Assembly: GCF_013294025.1 (NCBI RefSeq)
Contig: NZ_JABSNL010000003.1
Coordinates: 124,001-188,000, forward strand
Source of the DNA: Flavobacterium aeripolare
GTDB lineage: Bacteria; Bacteroidota; Bacteroidia; Flavobacteriales; Flavobacteriaceae
DNA: 64,000 nucleotides
Direction of reading: 5' to 3'
Made by a program: the position numbers and the translations under genes. The notes beneath the pieces were generated by a model. The model made no database searches, had not been told where the DNA came from, and was given only the letters and a program-made list of their open reading frames with translations. Below are positions 32,571 through 43,166 of the stretch, in pieces. How positions within the stretch are numbered: position 1 is the first letter of the stretch; each line of letters opens with the position of its first letter.

Positions 32571-32771
32571 GTTTCTTTATTGAGAATGGTTGTTTTGTAC
32601 CTTGTATTTCAAACAAACAGTACTCTTGAATTTTAAAAAAAATGTTTTTTTTTTATAGGATTTATAGTTCGAATTAATATACTTTTATGATTAGTTATAC
32701 TACAAGATAAAACTTCGTTAATACGGCGATTATTGAGTGGGTTTGCGAAGGTTTGTTTCGTGTATACGATA

Positions 32772-32781
32772 GTTAGCAGAC
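32772..32781 (+). repeat. left boundary of the cassette array (core-site half)
   Basis: GTTAGCAGAC is the exact reverse complement of GTCTGCTAAC at 34056-34065 (matching continues to 14 of 15 bases). It stands where the end of a preceding repeat would be, but the body of that repeat is degenerate or absent. The 250 bp between the phytase terminator and this site hold AT-rich sequence and no recognised gene. Confidence 0.65.
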
Positions 32782-32816
32782 ATATTAGAAAAACGAAACA
32801 TTAATCAACAAGAAAT

Positions 32817-33788
32817 ATGAAAAAAATAATCTTAACATTACTATTTTTAAGTAATTTATCCTATTCACAAAATAGATATTCACAATCATCAACTTCAACA
32901 TATACACCTATGACATTAAGTGAAATGATGGTTGTTCCTCAAAATTTAAGTAATAAATATAATGAAAATCAAAAATATTTATATTCTTTAAAAAACTGGA
33001 TTTTAGAATTAAAACCACAAGTAACAGAACAATCATTTATTATCAGATTTAATAAAGAATATAATGACCTTGTGAAAATTGAAGATAAAGATTTATCTAA
33101 AGCAACCCAATATTTACAACAAACAGAAAATGCAATAAGAGAAATAATTTCAGATTATAACATTTATGTTGCAAAACTAAATAAAGAAAATCAAACTAAA
33201 CAAAATCAAACTTCAACAAATAATTCATCACAAAACTTAATCCAAGTTGCCTTTAAGTATTATGAAGAAAAAGATTTTGCTAAATCTGTAGCTACTTTTT
33301 CTAAATATTTAGAAAATGACAAAAATAACACAGATGTGATTTTTTATCGTGCTTTAGCAAAAACAGAATTAAATGATTTCTATGGTGCTATATCTGACTA
33401 TGAAAAAATCATTGAGTTAAACTCTAACTATCCTTTACAATATAATAAATATGCAACAGTTTATAATAACAAAGCATATACTTTAGTTAGACTTAAAAAA
33501 TTCCAAGAAGCTTTGCCTTTTGTTGAAAAAGCATTAGCACTTGATAAAACAGAATGGTTTATTTGGGATACAAGAGGAGAAATTTATTACAATTTAGCTA
33601 TTTATGATAAAAGTTTAAAAGATTTAAACAAAGCAATTGAATTAAAAGAAAATGACAACTCGTATTTTTTAAGAGGTTTAGTTTACATCAAACTAGGTCA
33701 AAAAGAAAAAGGATGTAAAGATTTATCAAAATCGGGAGAACTTGGAAATTCAGAAGCATATGAAAAAATTAAAATTAATTGCAAATAA
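32817..33788 (+). CDS. exported TPR-repeat protein (cassette 1)
   Basis: A 323-residue protein with a signal peptide (IILTLLFLSNLSYSQ), an N-terminal coiled-coil-like region (about 40-125) and at least four tetratricopeptide units in the second half (YYEEKDFAKSVATFSKYLE; RALAKTELNDFYGAISDYEKIIELN; KALALDKTEWFIWDTRGEIYYNLAIYDKSLKDLNKAIEL). TPR regions bind proteins. AT content is visibly higher than in the core genes. It is followed 2 bp later by a small gene. Both share one cassette. Confidence 0.85.
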   Translation: MKKIILTLLFLSNLSYSQNRYSQSSTSTYTPMTLSEMMVVPQNLSNKYNENQKYLYSLKNWILELKPQVTEQSFIIRFNKEYNDLVKIEDKDLSKATQYLQQTENAIREIISDYNIYVAKLNKENQTKQNQTSTNNSSQNLIQVAFKYYEEKDFAKSVATFSKYLENDKNNTDVIFYRALAKTELNDFYGAISDYEKIIELNSNYPLQYNKYATVYNNKAYTLVRLKKFQEALPFVEKALALDKTEWFIWDTRGEIYYNLAIYDKSLKDLNKAIELKENDNSYFLRGLVYIKLGQKEKGCKDLSKSGELGNSEAYEKIKINCK

Positions 33789-33790
33789 AT

Positions 33791-34051
33791 ATGATTAATA
33801 GCCAAACTATAGAAAATTATAGAACAAGTGATTTTGAGGAATTAATGAATTCTAAAATAAAAATTACTTTAAAAAAACCATTTAAAATTAAATCAACAGA
33901 AGAAGAAGGAAACGTATTTACTGGACAAATTGTTAGTTTAGGTTTATCAGCTAATTCACCTCATTTACCTGTAAGTATTGATTTTTTAATTGAAAATACC
34001 GATGATAAAATATCCCCAAATATTTTCCAAATTGATAGTATAGAATTATAA
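33791..34051 (+). CDS. small hypothetical protein (cassette 1)
   Basis: An 86-residue soluble protein from the ATG at 33791 (INSQTIENYRTSDFEELMN...), starting 2 bp after the TPR stop codon. The C-terminal part (TGQIVSLGLSANSPHLPVSIDF) has a beta-rich, possibly single-stranded binding-like look, but no family can be named. Its stop codon is 4 bp before the inverted arm of the first repeat, typical of cassette genes that end close to the recombination site. Confidence 0.7.
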   Translation: MINSQTIENYRTSDFEELMNSKIKITLKKPFKIKSTEEEGNVFTGQIVSLGLSANSPHLPVSIDFLIENTDDKISPNIFQIDSIEL

Positions 34052-34055
34052 ATAC

Positions 34056-34194
34056 GTCTGCTAACACACGTTTGGCGCAATTGCGAATTTTGTGCTAAAT
34101 TCACATTCACGTTTCGCAAGAAATATTATCTTAGTTGAAAATAATCAGTTCCGGAGTTCGCAACTGACGCCAAGCGCGGGAACGTTGTGCGACA
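34056..34194 (+). repeat. attC-like imperfect palindrome 1
   Basis: A 132-bp core from TGCTAAC (34059) to GTTGTGC (34190). Arms CGTTTGGCG-CA-ATTGCGAA pair with TTCGCAACTGACGCCAAGCG with a few unpaired bases. Between the arms lies a conserved centre with AATTCAC, TTTCGCAAG and TATCTTAG shared with repeats 2 to 5. The left end matches the start of cassette 1, the right end GTTGTGCGA matches the end of cassette 2. Confidence 0.75.
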
Positions 34195-34220
34195 TTATAA
34201 AAAAAACGAGATGAAAAATT

Positions 34221-35939
34221 ATGTCTGAAATTCGAATTAAAACTATTTCAATTAAAAATTACAGATCGTTTAAAGATCGTCAAGTATTTAGATTTCCTGA
34301 TAATGAATATTTAAAACCAATATCAATTATTGGTTATAATAATTCAGGAAAAACTAATTTAATGAATTCAATACTTTACAGTATAGGAAATAAATTCACT
34401 TCAAAAGAAACATTTTCTATAAATGATTTTTATAATCGTGACATTATAAATATTCCAGAAATTATTTCCTTAACAGAAAGTACAACAGTACCCAAATATG
34501 ATGGTAAATTAGCTAACTTAAATGGATATAATAGATTAGAAATCCAAACCGATGGTTTTGAAATTGAAGGCGCAAAAATTGCATCATTAAAGCCAAATTA
34601 TACTGATAAAAATTGGGAAGCATTTGGAGCAAATAAATACTTTAATATTTTTTTCATTAATTTTCATAACATAAAAGAAGAAATTTCAACAAAAAAAACA
34701 AGTTGGGGAAATTTAACTTCATTTTTAGCCAAACATATAAAAAAATTAGTTGACGGAGATTTAGAAATGTCAAGTAAAAAAGAAGCTTTTAATACTGAAA
34801 CTAAAAAAGCTACTGAATCTGTTTTAGAAAACTCTGATTTAAAAAAATTTATTTCTAATATTAAATTAAACTATACAAACAACTTAAGAAATAATAACTG
34901 TCACGTTGAATTTGGCTTGCCAAATTATGAAGATATATTTCTTCAAATGATATTTAAAATTGGACTAAACGGAAATAATGAAAAACAAATTCCCATTGAT
35001 CAATTTGGAGATGGTTACATCTCAATGTTTGTTATGGCCGTAATTCAAGCAATTGCCGAAACTAATACTGAAGATAAATGTCTTTTCTTGTTTGAAGAAC
35101 CAGAAAGTTTTTTACACGAAAATCATCAAGAATATTTCTATAAAATGGTTTTATGCCCTTTAGCCTCTAAAGGTCATCAAGTAATTTATACAACACATTC
35201 TGACAAAATGATAGACATCTTTGATACAAAAAGTATTATTCGAGTAGAATTTGATGAAAATGAAAAACGAACTATAAATAAATATAACAATCTTGAAGAT
35301 TTTATACCAACCATTAAACCGATCATATCATTAGAAAATTATAATAGTTTTATAAAATCGGTTGAACCAAATTTGAATAAAATACTTTTTAGTAGAAAAG
35401 TAATTTTAGTAGAAGGACCTAATGATTTACTTGCATATAATTTCGCAATTGAAAAAACAGTTATGACTTTAATAAATGACATAAATTATGCAAAATCATA
35501 TTTAAATTTTAGAAATATTAGCATAATTCCACATCACGGTAAAGCAACTGCTTTATTATTGATTGACTTATGTAAACATTTTGGTCTAGAATATTTTGTT
35601 ATCAATGATTTAGATTTTGAAGACAATTTCATAACTCAATTAGATAATTTTGAAAATTTGACAGAATTAAAAGAAAGCAATTTATATCTTGATAAAAACA
35701 GTGCTAATAGAGGAATGATAACGACAAATTGGAACTTAATAAAAAGTGCTAACTTGAATAATTTACACTTTAATATTCCGAAACTTGAAAGTGTTTTAGG
35801 ATATGAAAGTAACGATAAAAATAGCTTAGGAATTTGGAATAAGTTAAATGAAATTGAAAACTTTGAAGAGAATTTTTTACCCAATAAATTAGCTTCATTT
35901 TTGGAATTTGATAGTTTAGAGGAGCTATTAAAAGAATAA
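34221..35939 (+). CDS. OLD-family ATPase / TOPRIM nuclease (cassette 2)
   Basis: A 572-residue protein. Residues 1-340 are an ABC/SMC-like ATPase: Walker A G38YNNSGKTN46, Walker B LFEEPES (about 289-295) and the following TTHSDKMID switch region. Residues about 390-560 are a TOPRIM domain, with VILVEGPND (about 394-402, catalytic Glu) and NDLDFED (about 463-469, DxD). This is the layout of class 1 OLD nucleases and of GajA from the Gabija anti-phage system. No GajB helicase gene follows: the next cassette is unrelated, so it is a stand-alone OLD protein or an incomplete system. Anti-phage activity is inference. Confidence 0.87.
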   Translation: MSEIRIKTISIKNYRSFKDRQVFRFPDNEYLKPISIIGYNNSGKTNLMNSILYSIGNKFTSKETFSINDFYNRDIINIPEIISLTESTTVPKYDGKLANLNGYNRLEIQTDGFEIEGAKIASLKPNYTDKNWEAFGANKYFNIFFINFHNIKEEISTKKTSWGNLTSFLAKHIKKLVDGDLEMSSKKEAFNTETKKATESVLENSDLKKFISNIKLNYTNNLRNNNCHVEFGLPNYEDIFLQMIFKIGLNGNNEKQIPIDQFGDGYISMFVMAVIQAIAETNTEDKCLFLFEEPESFLHENHQEYFYKMVLCPLASKGHQVIYTTHSDKMIDIFDTKSIIRVEFDENEKRTINKYNNLEDFIPTIKPIISLENYNSFIKSVEPNLNKILFSRKVILVEGPNDLLAYNFAIEKTVMTLINDINYAKSYLNFRNISIIPHHGKATALLLIDLCKHFGLEYFVINDLDFEDNFITQLDNFENLTELKESNLYLDKNSANRGMITTNWNLIKSANLNNLHFNIPKLESVLGYESNDKNSLGIWNKLNEIENFEENFLPNKLASFLEFDSLEELLKE

Positions 35940-35940
35940 C

Positions 35941-36078
35941 GATCGCACAACAGCGGTTTGCAAAAATGACGAGATATGTGGTGAATTCACGATTATCTTT
36001 CGCAACAGATTTTATCTTAGTCGAAAATCTCGGTCACGAAGTTCGCCACTTCCGCAAGCCGCGACACGTTGTGCGTCA
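35941..36078 (+). repeat. attC-like imperfect palindrome 2
   Basis: A 130-bp core from GCACAAC (35945-35951) to GTTGTGC (36068-36074), outer arms exactly complementary over 7 bp. Next inner arms GCGGTTTGC and GCAAGCCGC pair over 8 of 9 bp after an asymmetric bulge. The centre holds a GTGAATTCAC palindrome and TTTCGCAAC. The left end complements the start of cassette 2 (GTTGTGCGA). Confidence 0.8.
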
Positions 36079-36129
36079 GTTTAGAGAAAGTACATTCTAG
36101 ACAAGATATTCATTTAAAAAAATAATTTC

Positions 36130-36606
36130 ATGAAAAATTGGACAGAAAAACTAAAAGAAGTTTTAGAAATTAAAACTAAAAACTATTCAAGTCAGGAAAA
36201 GGAAAATATAAGTTACAAATACTTAAACAATTTAATTTTAAAAATTGAAAACGGAATTATTTCAGCAAATGAAGAACTAAAGTCCAAAGTAGAATATGTA
36301 ATTAATGAAATACCGTACAAAACACCCGAAAATAATATAATTTATAATACTAAACATTTAAATGAAATATCAAATTTACAAACTTTTATAGAAGAAAATT
36401 TCAAACTTGTTAAAACAAAAACATTTCAGAAACGTTATATGTTGTTAGGAATTCCTCTTGGATTGCCATTTGGATTGCCACTTGGAGTAGCCCTTGGTAA
36501 CATCGGTCTAGGTGTGATTATCGGTATGCCAATCGGAATGATTGCAGGACTTTTAATCGGTAATTATTTAGATAAAAAAGCAGAAAAGGAAAATAGAACA
36601 ATATAA
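36130..36606 (+). CDS. hypothetical protein with glycine-zipper membrane hairpin (cassette 3)
   Basis: A 158-residue protein. Residues 1-100 are charged and helical (EKLKEVLEIKTKNYSS...). Residues about 103-145 contain repeated Gly/Pro spaced as in GIPLGLPFGLPLGVALG and GMPIGMIAGLLIGNYL, a glycine-zipper type double membrane helix, then a basic-acidic tail. This looks like a membrane-inserting or pore-type protein, possibly an effector of a defence or toxin system; no family recognised. Preceded and followed by attC-like repeats and alone in its cassette. Confidence 0.65.
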   Translation: MKNWTEKLKEVLEIKTKNYSSQEKENISYKYLNNLILKIENGIISANEELKSKVEYVINEIPYKTPENNIIYNTKHLNEISNLQTFIEENFKLVKTKTFQKRYMLLGIPLGLPFGLPLGVALGNIGLGVIIGMPIGMIAGLLIGNYLDKKAEKENRTI

Positions 36607-36610
36607 AACC

Positions 36611-36748
36611 GATCGCACAATAGCGGTTTGCAAAAACGGCTAAATATGTGGTAAATTCACGATTCTCTTTCGCAAAAAATTTTATCTTAGTCGAAAATCT
36701 CGGCTACGAAGTTTGCAACCTCACAAAGCGGCAAAACCTTATGCATCA
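36611..36748 (+). repeat. attC-like imperfect palindrome 3
   Basis: From GCACAAT (36615-36621) to CTTATGC (36738-36744). Centre nearly identical to repeat 2 (AATTCACGATT, TCTTAGTCGAAAATCTCGG). The outer ends are less perfect (T for C on the left, C for G on the right), suggesting decay of this site. Confidence 0.75.
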
Positions 36749-36791
36749 GATAAATACAAAAATTAAGAAAAACAATTAAAATTACAATTAA

Positions 36792-37196
36792 ATGAAAAAA
36801 TATATAATTTTAGTAATCATATTGACATTGAATATTAATTTGTATGCGCAAGCTCAAATTGAAAAAAAACAAAATGATTTACAACAAATAAATGAAAATT
36901 ATATTAAAACATATAGAATGTTTCCAACTGCAAATGTATGGCATTTTATAAAATTGAACACTCAAACTGGACAAATGTGGCAAGTTGAACTTAATCAAAA
37001 AAAATCTAATCAATTGGAAACTCCTATAAATAGTTCATCGTTAGTAGAAAAACAAAATGAAGTAGATAATAGGTTTACACTATATTCTACTAATAATAGT
37101 TGGAATTTCTTTCTTCTAGATCAAATAGATGGTAGAGTATGGCAATTAAATTGGTCAACTAAATCTGGGAAAAGTGAAATTATACCTATCCAGTAA
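36792..37196 (+). CDS. small exported protein with duplicated WxF/GxxWQ motif (cassette 4)
   Basis: A 134-residue protein with a signal peptide (IILVIILTLNINLYAQ). Two related units follow: TYRMFPTANVWHFIKLNTQTGQMWQV and RFTLYSTNNSWNFFLLDQIDGRVWQL, each of about 28 residues with matching W, L, D/N, G and WQ positions. The duplicated unit resembles a motif found in many Bacteroidota proteins. Function is unknown; the exported location suggests an envelope or extracellular role. Alone in its cassette. Confidence 0.7.
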   Translation: MKKYIILVIILTLNINLYAQAQIEKKQNDLQQINENYIKTYRMFPTANVWHFIKLNTQTGQMWQVELNQKKSNQLETPINSSSLVEKQNEVDNRFTLYSTNNSWNFFLLDQIDGRVWQLNWSTKSGKSEIIPIQ

Positions 37197-37225
37197 TTAA
37201 TTAATAATTACGAGAAAGAATGGTC

Positions 37226-37362
37226 GATCGCACAACAGCGGTTTGCAAAAATAGCGAAGTATATGGAAAATTCACAATTCTACTTCGCAAGAAATTTTAT
37301 CTTAACCAAAAATAATCGGTCACGAGCTTCGCCGCTTCTGCAAGCCGCGACATGTTAGCAGA
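37226..37362 (+). repeat. attC-like imperfect palindrome 4
   Basis: From GCACAAC (37230-37236) to GTTAGCA (37354-37360), with arms GCGGTTTGCAaAA and TTcTGCAAGCCGC pairing over most positions. The centre TTCGCAAGAAATTTTATCTTA matches the other copies. The left arm and the right end belong to different end types (CACAAC and TTAGCA), as expected where two cassettes of different end sequence meet. Confidence 0.78.
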
Positions 37363-37397
37363 AATTATATTACAAAAACTAGAAAGAGTCTATTTAT

Positions 37398-38093
37398 ATG
37401 GGGAAAATTGAGGGTTTTGAGGAAAATAAAAAATTGAAACGGATCGATTCGTTATATATTATTCATGAAATAAAACATCTTTTACATCTTGAGAGTGGTT
37501 TTTTGTTTACCGTAAAACAACTTTTTATAAGTCCAGGGAAATTAGTAAGGAATTTTATTTTTGAAGACAGAAGCAAAGTTACCAAACCTCTAATTTTTTT
37601 AATATTTTCCACTACGATATTTACTCTAGTACTTCACTCTTTACATATTGAATATCAATACTTCAATATTGGAAACGGAAGTATAGACTCATATTTATCA
37701 AAAGAAGCTCTTAATAATTGGTTAAATAATCATGTTGGTTATGCTTCACTCTTTTTTGGATTTTTAATCGCATTATGGACAATGTTGTTTTTTAAAAAAC
37801 ATAAATACAACATTTATGAAATTACAATTTTGCTGTGTTATTCTTTTGGACAATTATTTTTAATATTATTGAGTTTCTCATTAATAGGTTTTTTATTTAA
37901 AAACAATTCCATTGCCTTTGTAGGTGTTGTTATTGGATATTTATATGTTGCTTGGTCTATTGGACAATTTTTTGGAGAGAAAAAAATTACAAATTATGTT
38001 AAATCAATATTCTGTTGTATTTTCGGATTTGTTTCTTTCACTCTTATTATGTTGATACTCGCACTTATTTTTAAACAATTGGGATTGAAATAA
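37398..38093 (+). CDS. DUF3667-like membrane protein (cassette 5)
   Basis: A 231-residue inner-membrane protein. The N-terminal domain (about 1-70) has HEIKHLLHLESGFLFTVKQLFISPGKLVRNFI, which fits the DUF3667 pattern (a conserved SPGKxxRxFI-type segment), then five hydrophobic helices. DUF3667 proteins in Bacteroidota are of unknown role. The stop codon abuts the next repeat, as expected for a cassette. Confidence 0.75.
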   Translation: MGKIEGFEENKKLKRIDSLYIIHEIKHLLHLESGFLFTVKQLFISPGKLVRNFIFEDRSKVTKPLIFLIFSTTIFTLVLHSLHIEYQYFNIGNGSIDSYLSKEALNNWLNNHVGYASLFFGFLIALWTMLFFKKHKYNIYEITILLCYSFGQLFLILLSFSLIGFLFKNNSIAFVGVVIGYLYVAWSIGQFFGEKKITNYVKSIFCCIFGFVSFTLIMLILALIFKQLGLK

Positions 38094-38228
38094 CTGCTGT
38101 TAACAGCCAATTGCAAAAATGGCGAAATATGAGGTAAATTCACGTTTATCTTTCGCAGGAAATTTTATCTTTAGCGGAAAATAATCGATTACGTAGTTCG
38201 CAACATCGCTAAATGCCAAAACGCTACC
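38094..38228 (+). repeat. attC-like imperfect palindrome 5
   Basis: From CTGCTGTTAAC (38094-38104) to GCTACC (38223-38228). It has the conserved centre TTTCGCAGG, AAATTTTATC and TCGCAACAT. The left arm CTGCT-GT-TAAC would match GTTAGCAG at the start of cassette 5 if GT is an insertion. The right end ACCAATAATTG is of a third end type. Confidence 0.72.
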
Positions 38229-38244
38229 AATAATTGAATAAAAA

Positions 38245-39057
38245 ATGAGCAAATTAAGCAGAAGAGAATTTATTAAAACAGGGATATTTGCCTCAATTGG
38301 ATTAGTTCTTTTGGATGCTTTTTGGTTTGAGAAATATGTTATTGATTGGAATTATTTTGACATTTCAAAGTCGGAAAAAAATAAAATAAAAATTGTTCAA
38401 ATTTCAGATTTGCATTTCGACCAATTAAGATATTTTCATAAATCAATCGCAAAAAAAATCAATTCAATTAACCCTGATTTAATTTTCATCACTGGAGATT
38501 CTGTTGACAAAACTGAAAAAATAGATTCATTAAACGAGTTCCTCTTGTTAATTGATCATTCGATTAAAAAGTATGCGATAACTGGAAATTGGGAATATTG
38601 GGGAAATGTGGATCTGACAGAGCTTAAGCGTATTTTTTCTATAAATAATTGTGAATTATTGATAAACGAAAATAGGACACTTTCGATTAAAAATCGTAAA
38701 ATCTCAATAATCGGAATTGATGATTTTGTTGCTGGAAGCGCTGATTTTGTAAAAGCAGTTGAAAATCTAAAAGAATCTGAAACCAATATTGTGTTATCAC
38801 ATTGTCCAGAACACAGAGATATAATCACAAAACAAAAGGGAAATTTAAATATTGATTTAGTCCTCTCTGGTCATACGCACGGGGGACAGATAACATTTTT
38901 AGGTATTGTTCCTTTCAAACCTAAAGGAAGTGGAAGATATTTAAAAGGCTGGTATAAAGAATCTGAGCCAAAAATGTATATTTCAAAAGGAATAGGAACA
39001 AGCATTTTACCAATCCGATTTGGAGCAAGGGCTGAAATGGTTGAAATGGACCTATAA
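38245..39057 (+). CDS. metallophosphoesterase with twin-arginine signal (cassette 6)
   Basis: Calcineurin-like phosphoesterase of 270 residues. N terminus LSRREFIKTGIFASIGLVLL is a twin-arginine type signal or anchor. The catalytic motifs are in order: ISDLHFD (about 54-60), GDSVD (about 81-85), GNWEYWG (GNHE equivalent with W in place of H, about 114-120), LSHCPEH, and SGHTHGG (about 213-219). This matches the YkuE/YaeI family of phosphodiesterases that act on lipid or nucleotide substrates. The GNWE substitution is family-typical or a mild change. Cargo of the last recognised cassette. Confidence 0.86.
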   Translation: MSKLSRREFIKTGIFASIGLVLLDAFWFEKYVIDWNYFDISKSEKNKIKIVQISDLHFDQLRYFHKSIAKKINSINPDLIFITGDSVDKTEKIDSLNEFLLLIDHSIKKYAITGNWEYWGNVDLTELKRIFSINNCELLINENRTLSIKNRKISIIGIDDFVAGSADFVKAVENLKESETNIVLSHCPEHRDIITKQKGNLNIDLVLSGHTHGGQITFLGIVPFKPKGSGRYLKGWYKESEPKMYISKGIGTSILPIRFGARAEMVEMDL

Positions 39058-41874: not shown

Positions 41875-41949
41875 AGTTAGAAGAGGTCGAAGGAGTTGGG
41901 GATAATGAGAATATAGGAAATAGTATTTTAAAACGATTTAATACAATAA
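41875..41949 (+). pseudogene. 75-bp remnant of a paralogue of the aspartic protease gene
   Basis: The sequence is 73 of 75 bases identical to 43031-43105 near the 3' end of the following gene, and its frame (LEEVEGVGDNENIGNSILKR) runs directly into the ATG of that gene. It is preceded by an in-frame TAG at 41874-41876, so there is no complete upstream gene. It looks like the tail of a former tandem copy left after deletion. Confidence 0.7.
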
Positions 41950-41957
41950 ACGAAACA

Positions 41958-43166
41958 ATGAAACATATTTTACTAGCATTTTTTTTATTTGTGATAATAG
42001 GTCAAAATGTGTATTCACAAGTCAAATTGCCCATTCTAAAATCAAATATTAAGGAATTAGATATAAAAGAAGGCACATCTCTTTACAAAAAAACTTGGAA
42101 TGTATCACCAAAAATAAAGCCTGATGTATTTGTTACAAATGCATTTAAAGGATCTAAGCAAATTGTTTTTTATTCAGATATTGATTCAATCAAGTTTACA
42201 GTTAAGCCAAACAAAAAATATGATTTTATTGTATTATTAGATGGAAAAGAAAAAGCTTACAGTCAAATAAACACCTATTCGAACGAGGAGCCTTCCCTAG
42301 ACCCAAAACTTTTCTACACTAGATTGAATGCTAATGCAGGAGCAATTGACACTATTCCATTCAAACTAGGAGAAGACAACCGCATTCATTTTGAAGGTCG
42401 AATAAACCAATCAACCATATTAAACTTTCTGTTTGACACTGGAGCGAGTTCTTGCATAATTACCAGCTCGATAATTAATAAAAAAGTACTTTTAAATATA
42501 GATTCCAATCGAGAGAATGTAGGTACTGATGGTGTGTCAACGGTAGGTGTCAGTAGAAAAAATACAGTTGAGATTAATAATTTAATTTGGAGCGATGTAA
42601 CCTTATTATCCATTGATTACAAAAAACCTTCTTTTGACGCAGTTATAGGTTGGGTGGCATTCGAAAATAAAATAGTGGAAATTGATTATGAAAATAATAT
42701 ACTGGCTATTCATCAGTCATTACCAGAACTATCAAATGAATACACAAAAATTGATTTAAAACTAATAGGCGGTATTCCATATATAAAATGTCAACTAATT
42801 GTAAATGGAAAAGAGACGGAAGGTTGGTTTGATTTTGATACCGGTTCAGATGGAGAATTAAGCATAGGCCAGTTTTTTGCCAAAGAGCATTCATTAATAA
42901 ACGTCATGAAGGAAACAGGAACCAGTGAATCAATTGGTACTGCTGGAAATAGAATTAAAAGTAAAGAAGTTATACTTCCAATATTAAAATTGGGAAAATA
43001 TGAAATGTATAAAATTCCACTGTCAATTGAGTTAGAAGAGGTCGAAGGAGTTGGGGATAATGAAAATATAGGAAATAGTATTTTGAAACGATTTAATACA
43101 ATAATGGATTTTAGAAATAACTATATTTATTTGAAACCAAATAGCTTATTCCATAGTCCATTTTGA
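41958..43166 (+). CDS. exported double-domain aspartic protease
   Basis: A 402-residue protein with a signal peptide (ILLAFFLFVIIGQNVYSQ). Two retropepsin-like units follow: LFDTGASSCII (catalytic D about 160) and FDFDTGSDGELS (catalytic D about 294), each about 130 residues, like the two lobes of pepsin-type enzymes. Bacteroidota carry many such proteins with a hydrophobic-hydrophobic-DTG motif. Both motifs are intact, so activity is likely; substrate unknown. The 75-bp remnant before the start points to a former tandem duplicate. Confidence 0.83.
   Translation: MKHILLAFFLFVIIGQNVYSQVKLPILKSNIKELDIKEGTSLYKKTWNVSPKIKPDVFVTNAFKGSKQIVFYSDIDSIKFTVKPNKKYDFIVLLDGKEKAYSQINTYSNEEPSLDPKLFYTRLNANAGAIDTIPFKLGEDNRIHFEGRINQSTILNFLFDTGASSCIITSSIINKKVLLNIDSNRENVGTDGVSTVGVSRKNTVEINNLIWSDVTLLSIDYKKPSFDAVIGWVAFENKIVEIDYENNILAIHQSLPELSNEYTKIDLKLIGGIPYIKCQLIVNGKETEGWFDFDTGSDGELSIGQFFAKEHSLINVMKETGTSESIGTAGNRIKSKEVILPILKLGKYEMYKIPLSIELEEVEGVGDNENIGNSILKRFNTIMDFRNNYIYLKPNSLFHSPF

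Follow-up and report, generated by a model that had tools for sequence, protein, structure and literature searches.

An integron-like cassette array in Flavobacterium aeripolare and a proposed recombinase lacking the IntI additional domain

The window analysed here, a stretch of 64,000 nucleotides from Flavobacterium aeripolare (contig NZ_JABSNL010000003.1, forward-strand positions 124,001 to 188,000), contains five gene cassettes, all on the plus strand, each ending in a repeat that resembles the attC recombination site of integrons. The series is preceded by a site resembling the integron attachment site attI (32700–32771, left limit approximate), whose left arm is decayed and whose conserved right arm, GCGAAGGTTTGTTTCGTGTATACGATAG, stands immediately 5′ of a GTT. 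Cassette 1 (32772–34183) starts with GTTAGCAGAC and encodes a TPR protein (32817–33788, Pfam) and a second open reading frame (ORF; 33779–34051); its attC-like site (34056–34186; 111.6 bits with model R1, which is used for all five sites) consists of R″ GTCTGCTAAC, a core at 34063–34186 and an R′ that it has in common with cassette 2. Cassette 2 (34184–36067) encodes an OLD/GajA-like AAA-TOPRIM protein (34221–35939; Pfam AAA_15 and OLD-like_TOPRIM; PADLOC Old at E 6e-35, and GajA), which, judged by its family, likely acts in phage defence, and ends in an attC-like site at 35941–36070 (128.5 bits). A 158-residue protein (36130–36606) in cassette 3 (36068–36737) and a 134-residue protein (36792–37196) in cassette 4 (36738–37353) are both without a Pfam match, while cassette 5 (37354–38221) carries a DUF3667 protein (37398–38093, Pfam). 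Site 3 (36611–36740; 104.6 bits) is decayed, with AAT for AAC and CTT for GTT, as is site 5 (38096–38225; 105.7 bits), with GCT for GTT; site 4 lies at 37226–37356 (121.5 bits). An Rfam search of 32600–38400 gave no match, even at E 5.

This cluster is a decayed side array, and the main array of about 47 repeats lies on other contigs of the same genome. The repeat gave 40 BLAST matches in the genome, with copies about 90% alike inside the main array, and a profile search placed 47 repeats on contigs C20, C21, C23, C24, C25 and the start of C9, leaving out four opposite-strand matches, in addition to the five in the window. The gene upstream of the window array was present in 4 others among 40 relatives searched, with an attI 3′ of none of them in the 420 bases read.

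The original prediction had proposed that the start and end of the same cassette are reverse complements, as in integrons, and its coordinates and sequence letters proved correct. The ends of cassette 1 pair at all of the first 10 bases and at 14 of 15 when extended, those of cassettes 2 and 3 at 9/10 and 7/10, and cassette 4 is, as had been stated, a misfit whose ends are unpaired (5/10, and 7/15 when extended). Cassette 5 also fits (8/10, 12/15), although the 2-bp insertion that had been invoked for it is unnecessary, since an ungapped alignment suffices. Taken alone the window is no more than suggestive, because 6 of 120 re-pairings of its five cassettes score as well as the own pairing over the first 10 bases.

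Comparison of a larger sample with shuffled pairings, which the original prediction had put forward as its check, revealed a strong own-cassette excess both in the same genome and in its relatives. Among 43 cassettes of the genome (five from the window and 38 from elsewhere; three further ones were dropped because one of their boundaries was not located), the mean unbroken complementary run is 9.0 bases compared to 3.84 after shuffling, a value that none of 10,000 shuffles reached, while the two arms of one site as arrayed pair over 3.88 bases on average (49 sites). Within the main array, the run is at least 7 bases in all 38 testable cassettes and at least 9 in 36 of them. Cassettes of relatives, 76 in all and 70 of them unique, built from the top 150 among 189 matches to the model, gave own runs of 7.6 bases on average compared to 3.83 (0 of 20,000 shuffles), with runs of at least 9 bases in 47 of the 70 unique cassettes and in 104 of 4830 crossed pairings. 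A further test, independent of the repeat model, used the first cassette after the integrase gene in a set of 80 integrase loci, chosen as the best among 581 confirmed relatives from named genomes: the starting 9-mer recurs downstream as its reverse complement in 38 of 54 usable loci, whereas a foreign start does so in 53 of 2834 cases (1.9%). As a positive control, the superintegron of Vibrio sp. HDW18, a canonical one, shows an excess of the same type (own run 8.44 compared to 5.05 shuffled; 0 of 5000 shuffles; 27 cassettes), and the observed complementarity is therefore what an integron array looks like. The proposed rule for cassette ends is borne out by the shuffled-pairing tests together with this control.

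Pairing partners vary from one cassette to the next and usually flank a gene at a distance of 0.5 to 2 kb from each other. Pairing spans positions 1–10 and 12–15 and ends at position 16. Position 11 is a near-invariant unpaired A (118 of 120 unique starts), and the base facing it is C or G in 89 of 93 cassettes with good pairing, a set selected from 111 start/end pairs by a match at positions 5–9, so that positions 4, 10 and 12–15 are the unbiased ones. In this set position 10 pairs in just 60 cassettes and positions 12–15 in 73–80, and all four Watson–Crick types are common at positions 6, 7, 9 and 13. In the Vibrio array, by contrast, pairing fades steadily (11/27 at position 11, 3–8/27 at positions 12–15), whereas in the Flavobacterium type four further pairs come after the unpaired A at position 11. 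We had considered own-cassette complementarity beyond 7 bp as a feature unique to the present arrays and rejected this, because Vibrio shows runs of 8–14 bp in most cassettes; only the position-11 rule and the helix at positions 12–15 are therefore retained as differences.

Each cassette carries one attC-like site with R″, L″, L′ and R′ arms, in which the L arms covary with each other and the R arms covary across each cassette. The core reads roughly AAC-A-GCxGTTTGGC...GCCAAGCxGC-nnnAC-GTT. For 190 unique sites of relatives (all those starting with AAC, ending with GTT and 112–132 long, identified by a model into which part of the structure is built), ten L-arm pairs are formed in 86.8% of cells compared to 57.5% in shuffled data, with a maximum of 60.8% in 500 shuffles. 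Eighteen named pairs are formed in 88.8% of cases in 40 diverse sites, hand-picked from the first 45 of 139 with five skipped, compared to 65.5% when shuffled and 36–42% when slid by one column, and 17 of the 18 show changes on both sides. Only 7 of the 120 unique starts fit the canonical core GTTRRRY, and only 7 of the 114 unique ends fit RYYYAAC. In predicted folds of the bottom strand, 40 of 41 sites are more stable with their own cassette start, as brought in by a circle, than with the neighbour's; for 39 of the 41 the bottom strand is predicted to be more stable than the top. These predictions suggest that a circle would insert more readily than an arrayed cassette leaves, and that attC would act as a folded single strand, probably the bottom one. 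When folded as arrayed, window sites 1, 2 and 4 reach z down to −2.8, a moderate value, and sites 3 and 5 give no signal. In the array the R arms of a site come from different cassettes, and two of the sites are decayed.

Traces of cassette movement are seen in a complete relative (G045), in which cassettes of 715, 732 and 754 bp are each present three times, 99.7–100% identical and with different neighbours. On the left, the flanks of these copies diverge up to CGTT or to a few chance-like bases before it; on the right, they diverge after GTT, save where similar next cassettes share further bases. The integrase gene of this genome (242,428–243,468, minus strand) is directly followed, on the same strand, by the array, which extends down to about 204 kb. 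Judged by their sequence boundaries, these triplications fit integrase-dependent excision and insertion at G^TT, and the suggestion that the junctions are hard to explain without site-specific exchange at GTT gains support, since the triplicated cassettes place the exchange at about CGTT. In the genome of the window itself, one 849-bp cassette is present twice at 98.2% identity.

The candidate enzyme is a tyrosine recombinase of 347 residues (G000:C1:201–1241), encoded at a contig end. It scores 199.6 bits with the integron integrase model TIGR02249, below the cut-off of 265, and leaves unmatched profile positions 182–237, the part carrying the IntI insertion; this additional domain, an insertion of roughly 41 residues, is absent from the recombinase. 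Consistently, the spacing from the catalytic Arg to HxxR is 91–92 residues in 103 of 104 sequences of the Bacteroidota type, some of whose genomes are counted in both contributing sets, compared to 133–134 in all 12 IntI measured. In a tree of 42 rows, the new clade and IntI stand on opposite sides of a branch with support 100/99, a split that leaves out five ungrouped rows (two Xer, XerA, and the tet(X3) and VEB recombinases discussed below); the tet(X3) and VEB recombinases are placed beside the new group. The tree also showed the new clade as sister to IntI (support 90/80), but long branches make this placement unsafe and we do not claim shared ancestry from it. The XerA_Arch model NF040815, whose description already reads 'site-specific tyrosine recombinase/integron integrase', is narrowly passed (223.6 bits, cut-off 220). 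Fold comparison of residues 67–329 of the predicted model gave Z 23.3 with archaeal Xer 4a8e (root-mean-square deviation (rmsd) 7.8 over 258 residues), Z 19.7 with XerA 5hxy (rmsd 13.8 over 249 residues) and Z 18.3 with IntI4 2a3v (rmsd 4.9 over 251 residues). The recombinase thus has the fold of XerA and XerC–XerD, likewise without the IntI insertion, and differs from them in about 60 extra N-terminal residues (1–60, L001) before the core-binding domain, predicted to form an alpha/beta domain, and in its linkage to attI and cassette arrays. Because it has no IntI domain, the system is not filed as a canonical integron, although it appears to work like one.

About 105 bases 3′ of the integrase stop codon on contig C1, the cassette start GAG^TTAGCAGTAATTTT is found. 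The attI-like pattern and motif that precede it recur before the first window cassette and at a third place, on contig C19. In relatives the order is integrase stop codon, TAnnTTTG promoter motif, palindromic arms, TATATACnAG^TT and cassette. An attI core lies 3′ of the integrase gene in 76 of the 80 loci with a permissive pattern that makes a few errors either way (by eye, L183 and L205 have no attI, the wrong place was taken in L184 and L220, and the site was missed in L168). The palindromic arms differ from species to species; the region 5′ of the core folds with z < −2 in 50 of 72 loci, and, although this folding would suggest more, only 26 of the 72 have direct inverted repeats of at least 8 between the arms. 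Within 60 nucleotides of the integrase stop codon, the promoter motif, in the form TAnnTT(T/A)G, is present in 52 of 79 loci, compared to 5.7% in shuffled sequence, and its position suggests that cassettes may be expressed from it.

Several further observations concern attI sites. One genome (G031) has four attI pattern hits, and the third attI of F. aeripolare (L049 9876–12040, G000:C19) is followed by a cassette-like gene and decayed sites, adjoining a DNA cytosine methyltransferase-like gene. In three loci (L085, L089 and L101), short gene-less units starting with G^ATG, in which a hairpin GATGTGAAAAATCGCCC... is followed by an attC-like stem, replace the GTT cassette at the integrase attI and may be empty cassettes that belong to a second type of site. 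Three genomes have an orphan attI site (L113, L114 and L126) with similar sequence behind it and, some 1 kb further on, a distant tyrosine recombinase (about 26% identity), possibly part of an element that targets attI.

We consider it roughly 85% probable that the window holds a small cassette array, decayed in part, which belongs to an integron-like system for gene capture in Flavobacterium and its relatives and is served by a proposed recombinase without the IntI domain. The array structure, the own-cassette covariation, the position of attI beside the integrase in many genomes, the triplications at about CGTT, the covariation of the attC stem and the absence of the IntI insertion are all seen at the level of sequence. 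The unit G^TT–gene–attC would move as a circle, in which the first 15 bases would face the R″ arm of the same cassette, completing a long attC hairpin fold. A Bacteroidota-type tyrosine recombinase without the IntI additional domain, by our proposal the enzyme that carries out the exchange, would then recombine the folded attC with the attI between the integrase stop codon and the first cassette, strand exchange taking place at (C/A)G^TT, and the TAnnTTTG motif after the integrase stop would drive the cassettes. Several findings weigh against this account. A complementary 9-mer is absent downstream of 16 of the 54 first cassettes, and 18 of the 111 start/end pairs misfit, some through a degenerate attC missed between them. 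The integrase contig of F. aeripolare ends 200 bp past the gene, so that its adjacency to the main array is read from the cassette start and from relatives. The window attI-like site has no integrase match in the 1.5 kb upstream, and of the 17 hits of the attI pattern that have the window-type arm (L110–L126, the window included), 15 lack a close integrase within up to 1.5 kb upstream. Likewise, 33 genomes without a close integrase still carry repeats, as drafts, through decayed arrays or with other recombinases. Finally, among 120 relatives, repeats were found in 31 of 36 integrase-positive genomes compared to 33 of 84 negative ones (p 2e-6), but within the genus the figures are 30 of 34 and 30 of 39 (p 0.24); the association is mostly a genus effect, and we dropped it as strong support because the within-genus test took most of its weight.

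The same lack of a significant within-genus association would also fit a canonical integron, or a cluster of attC sites lacking integrases (CALIN), whose IntI lies elsewhere or has been lost, the Bacteroidota recombinase being a bystander. The own-cassette rule and the folded attC, which match Vibrio, would suit this explanation too, as would the presence of IntI above the TIGR02249 cut-off in 105 of 395 genomes of the phylum, in other classes. We nevertheless regard it as unlikely: the genome of the window has no IntI above that cut-off, among the 107 matching genomes listed of the 395 one belongs to the same class (G153) and none to the same genus, canonical cores are rare among the starts and ends counted above, and a non-IntI recombinase directly precedes attI in most of the 80 loci.

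Exchange by homologous recombination between repeats, with the complementarity as a by-product of a terminator or RNA structure, draws on the high similarity of repeats in the main array and would predict junctions anywhere in the repeat. In G045, the left flanks instead diverge up to about CGTT and the right flanks from behind GTT, a focus that recombination between 120-bp repeats would not produce, and a terminator or RNA structure sits poorly with partners usually separated by a gene and different from cassette to cassette; we therefore give this explanation very little credence. We give still less to the idea that composite repeats spread by transposition, each gene being a small transposon with the 15-base ends as its terminal inverted repeats. 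The unit ends are indeed inverted repeats and the copies are dispersed, but the ends vary among cassettes (30 distinct first 9-mers among 43), no transposase is present among the 25 families listed of the 33 Pfam families matched by 40 cassette proteins, and the units stand head to tail, sharing one GTT, with an attI-like site at the start of the array.

The integron-like system shares with canonical integrons, both class 1 and the Vibrio superintegrons, codirectional cassettes with one folded site each, exchange at G^TT, R″/R′ complementarity within the own cassette and an attI beside the recombinase gene. It differs from them in the recombinase, with its shorter catalytic spacing and missing additional domain, in the species-variable palindromic arms of attI, and in an R core of GTTR instead of GTTRRRY. 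In class 1 integrons the integrase gene is divergent from the cassettes, whereas the Flavobacterium-type integrase is codirectional with them.

Cargo genes follow the direction of the array, the longest ORF being so oriented in 41 of the 43 cassettes of F. aeripolare. Apart from the window genes, cassette proteins match AbiU/AIPR, TIR (ThsB-like), HepT, DarG-like, Mrr and DpnII nuclease families and a beta-lactamase-fold hydrolase, and many have no match among the families listed (Pfam was run on 40 of the 43 ORFs, and PADLOC on eight chosen by eye). A metallophosphoesterase gene 3′ of the last window attC (38222–39057) could represent a sixth cassette, one that lacks a recognised site, and a metallophosphoesterase is also annotated in the array of a Chryseobacterium plasmid (L239 15435–16247). 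Further along the window, a 75-bp piece (43030–43104) of the gene at 41958–43166 has a 97% identical copy just upstream of that gene (41875–41949).

Close relatives of the recombinase are found across Bacteroidota. The 80 integrase loci come from Flavobacterium, Kaistella, Pedobacter, Pelobium, Algoriphagus, Galbibacter, uncultured Bacteroidota and single metagenome-assembled genomes labelled Ignavibacteria and Azoarcus, and the new type (E ≤ 1e-90) is present in 37 of the 395 phylum genomes, 18 within the class and 19 outside it, some of which carry IntI as well. Matches in a search of a phage collection were all under 60% identity. Among the literature matches listed, with subscription journals and preprints outside their scope, none reports this system. 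Integron surveys identify IntI by its specific domain (PMC9024848, PMC9668308), and the portion of the IntegronFinder 2.0 account that treats Bacteroidetes names one complete integron there, that of Salinibacter ruber. Surveys keyed to the IntI domain would therefore leave a recombinase of the new type uncounted.

More distant relatives of the recombinase also lie directly upstream of two resistance genes on plasmids, with one record each for blaVEB-3 and tet(X3). In Klebsiella michiganensis NZ_CP084417.1 (L243 2642–3364), a 5′-truncated relative is followed by attI-like palindromes and then by GTTAGCGGTAATTT, which stands 36 bases 5′ of the blaVEB-3 start codon. In Acinetobacter baylyi NZ_CP104735.1 (L244 2967–5117), a relative (52.9% identity to the F. 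aeripolare integrase over 64% of the query) lies 190 bp upstream of tet(X3), with the cassette-like start GTTATGTGCCATTTT between them and the left half of an attC-like site 3′ of tet(X3); the ends of this cassette match at positions 1–4, 8–10 and 12–15 and mismatch at 5–7. A gene called 'xerD' adjoins tet(X) in the arrangement ISCR2-xerD-tet(X)-res-ISCR2 and is termed, in the section describing it, a recombinase flanking tet(X) and not an integron integrase (PMC7530245). From its place, the A. baylyi recombinase would be the same gene as this 'xerD'. In Chryseobacterium, XerD likewise lies beside tetX-catB11 (PMC11194056). Of two Chryseobacterium plasmids with full-length members of the family, one carries five attC-like sites on the array strand, and the other has attI and a cassette start without a match to the attC model. 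In Riemerella anatipestifer, aph(3′)-IVb, together with a 27-bp leader and a 140-bp attC-like tail, is reported to have inserted without homology, by a mechanism that the authors regard as not yet fully elucidated (PMC13148043).

The integron rule holds in these arrays, and the machinery, a Bacteroidota platform with a non-IntI recombinase as its presumed active enzyme, represents a variant form. On balance we also favour, though with distinctly more reserve than the reading of the window itself, a second integron lineage, widespread in Bacteroidota, that would capture folded cassettes without the IntI additional domain (the I2 helix) and read instead the longer R arm with its unpaired A at position 11; it would be either a relic from before the IntI domain or an independent invention, and the platform by which blaVEB, tet(X) and other such genes reached Gammaproteobacteria. 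According to one view (PMC7790495), integrases turned to the recombination of folded single strands through acquisition of the I2 helix, and this view would become testable against a natural enzyme without that helix. The platform would explain why blaVEB and tet(X) lie behind 'xerD'-like genes and possibly also the aph(3′)-IVb insertion reported for R. anatipestifer (PMC13148043). If confirmed, a large environmental phylum would have its own cassette-capture platform, carrying phage-defence-like genes together with many of unknown function.

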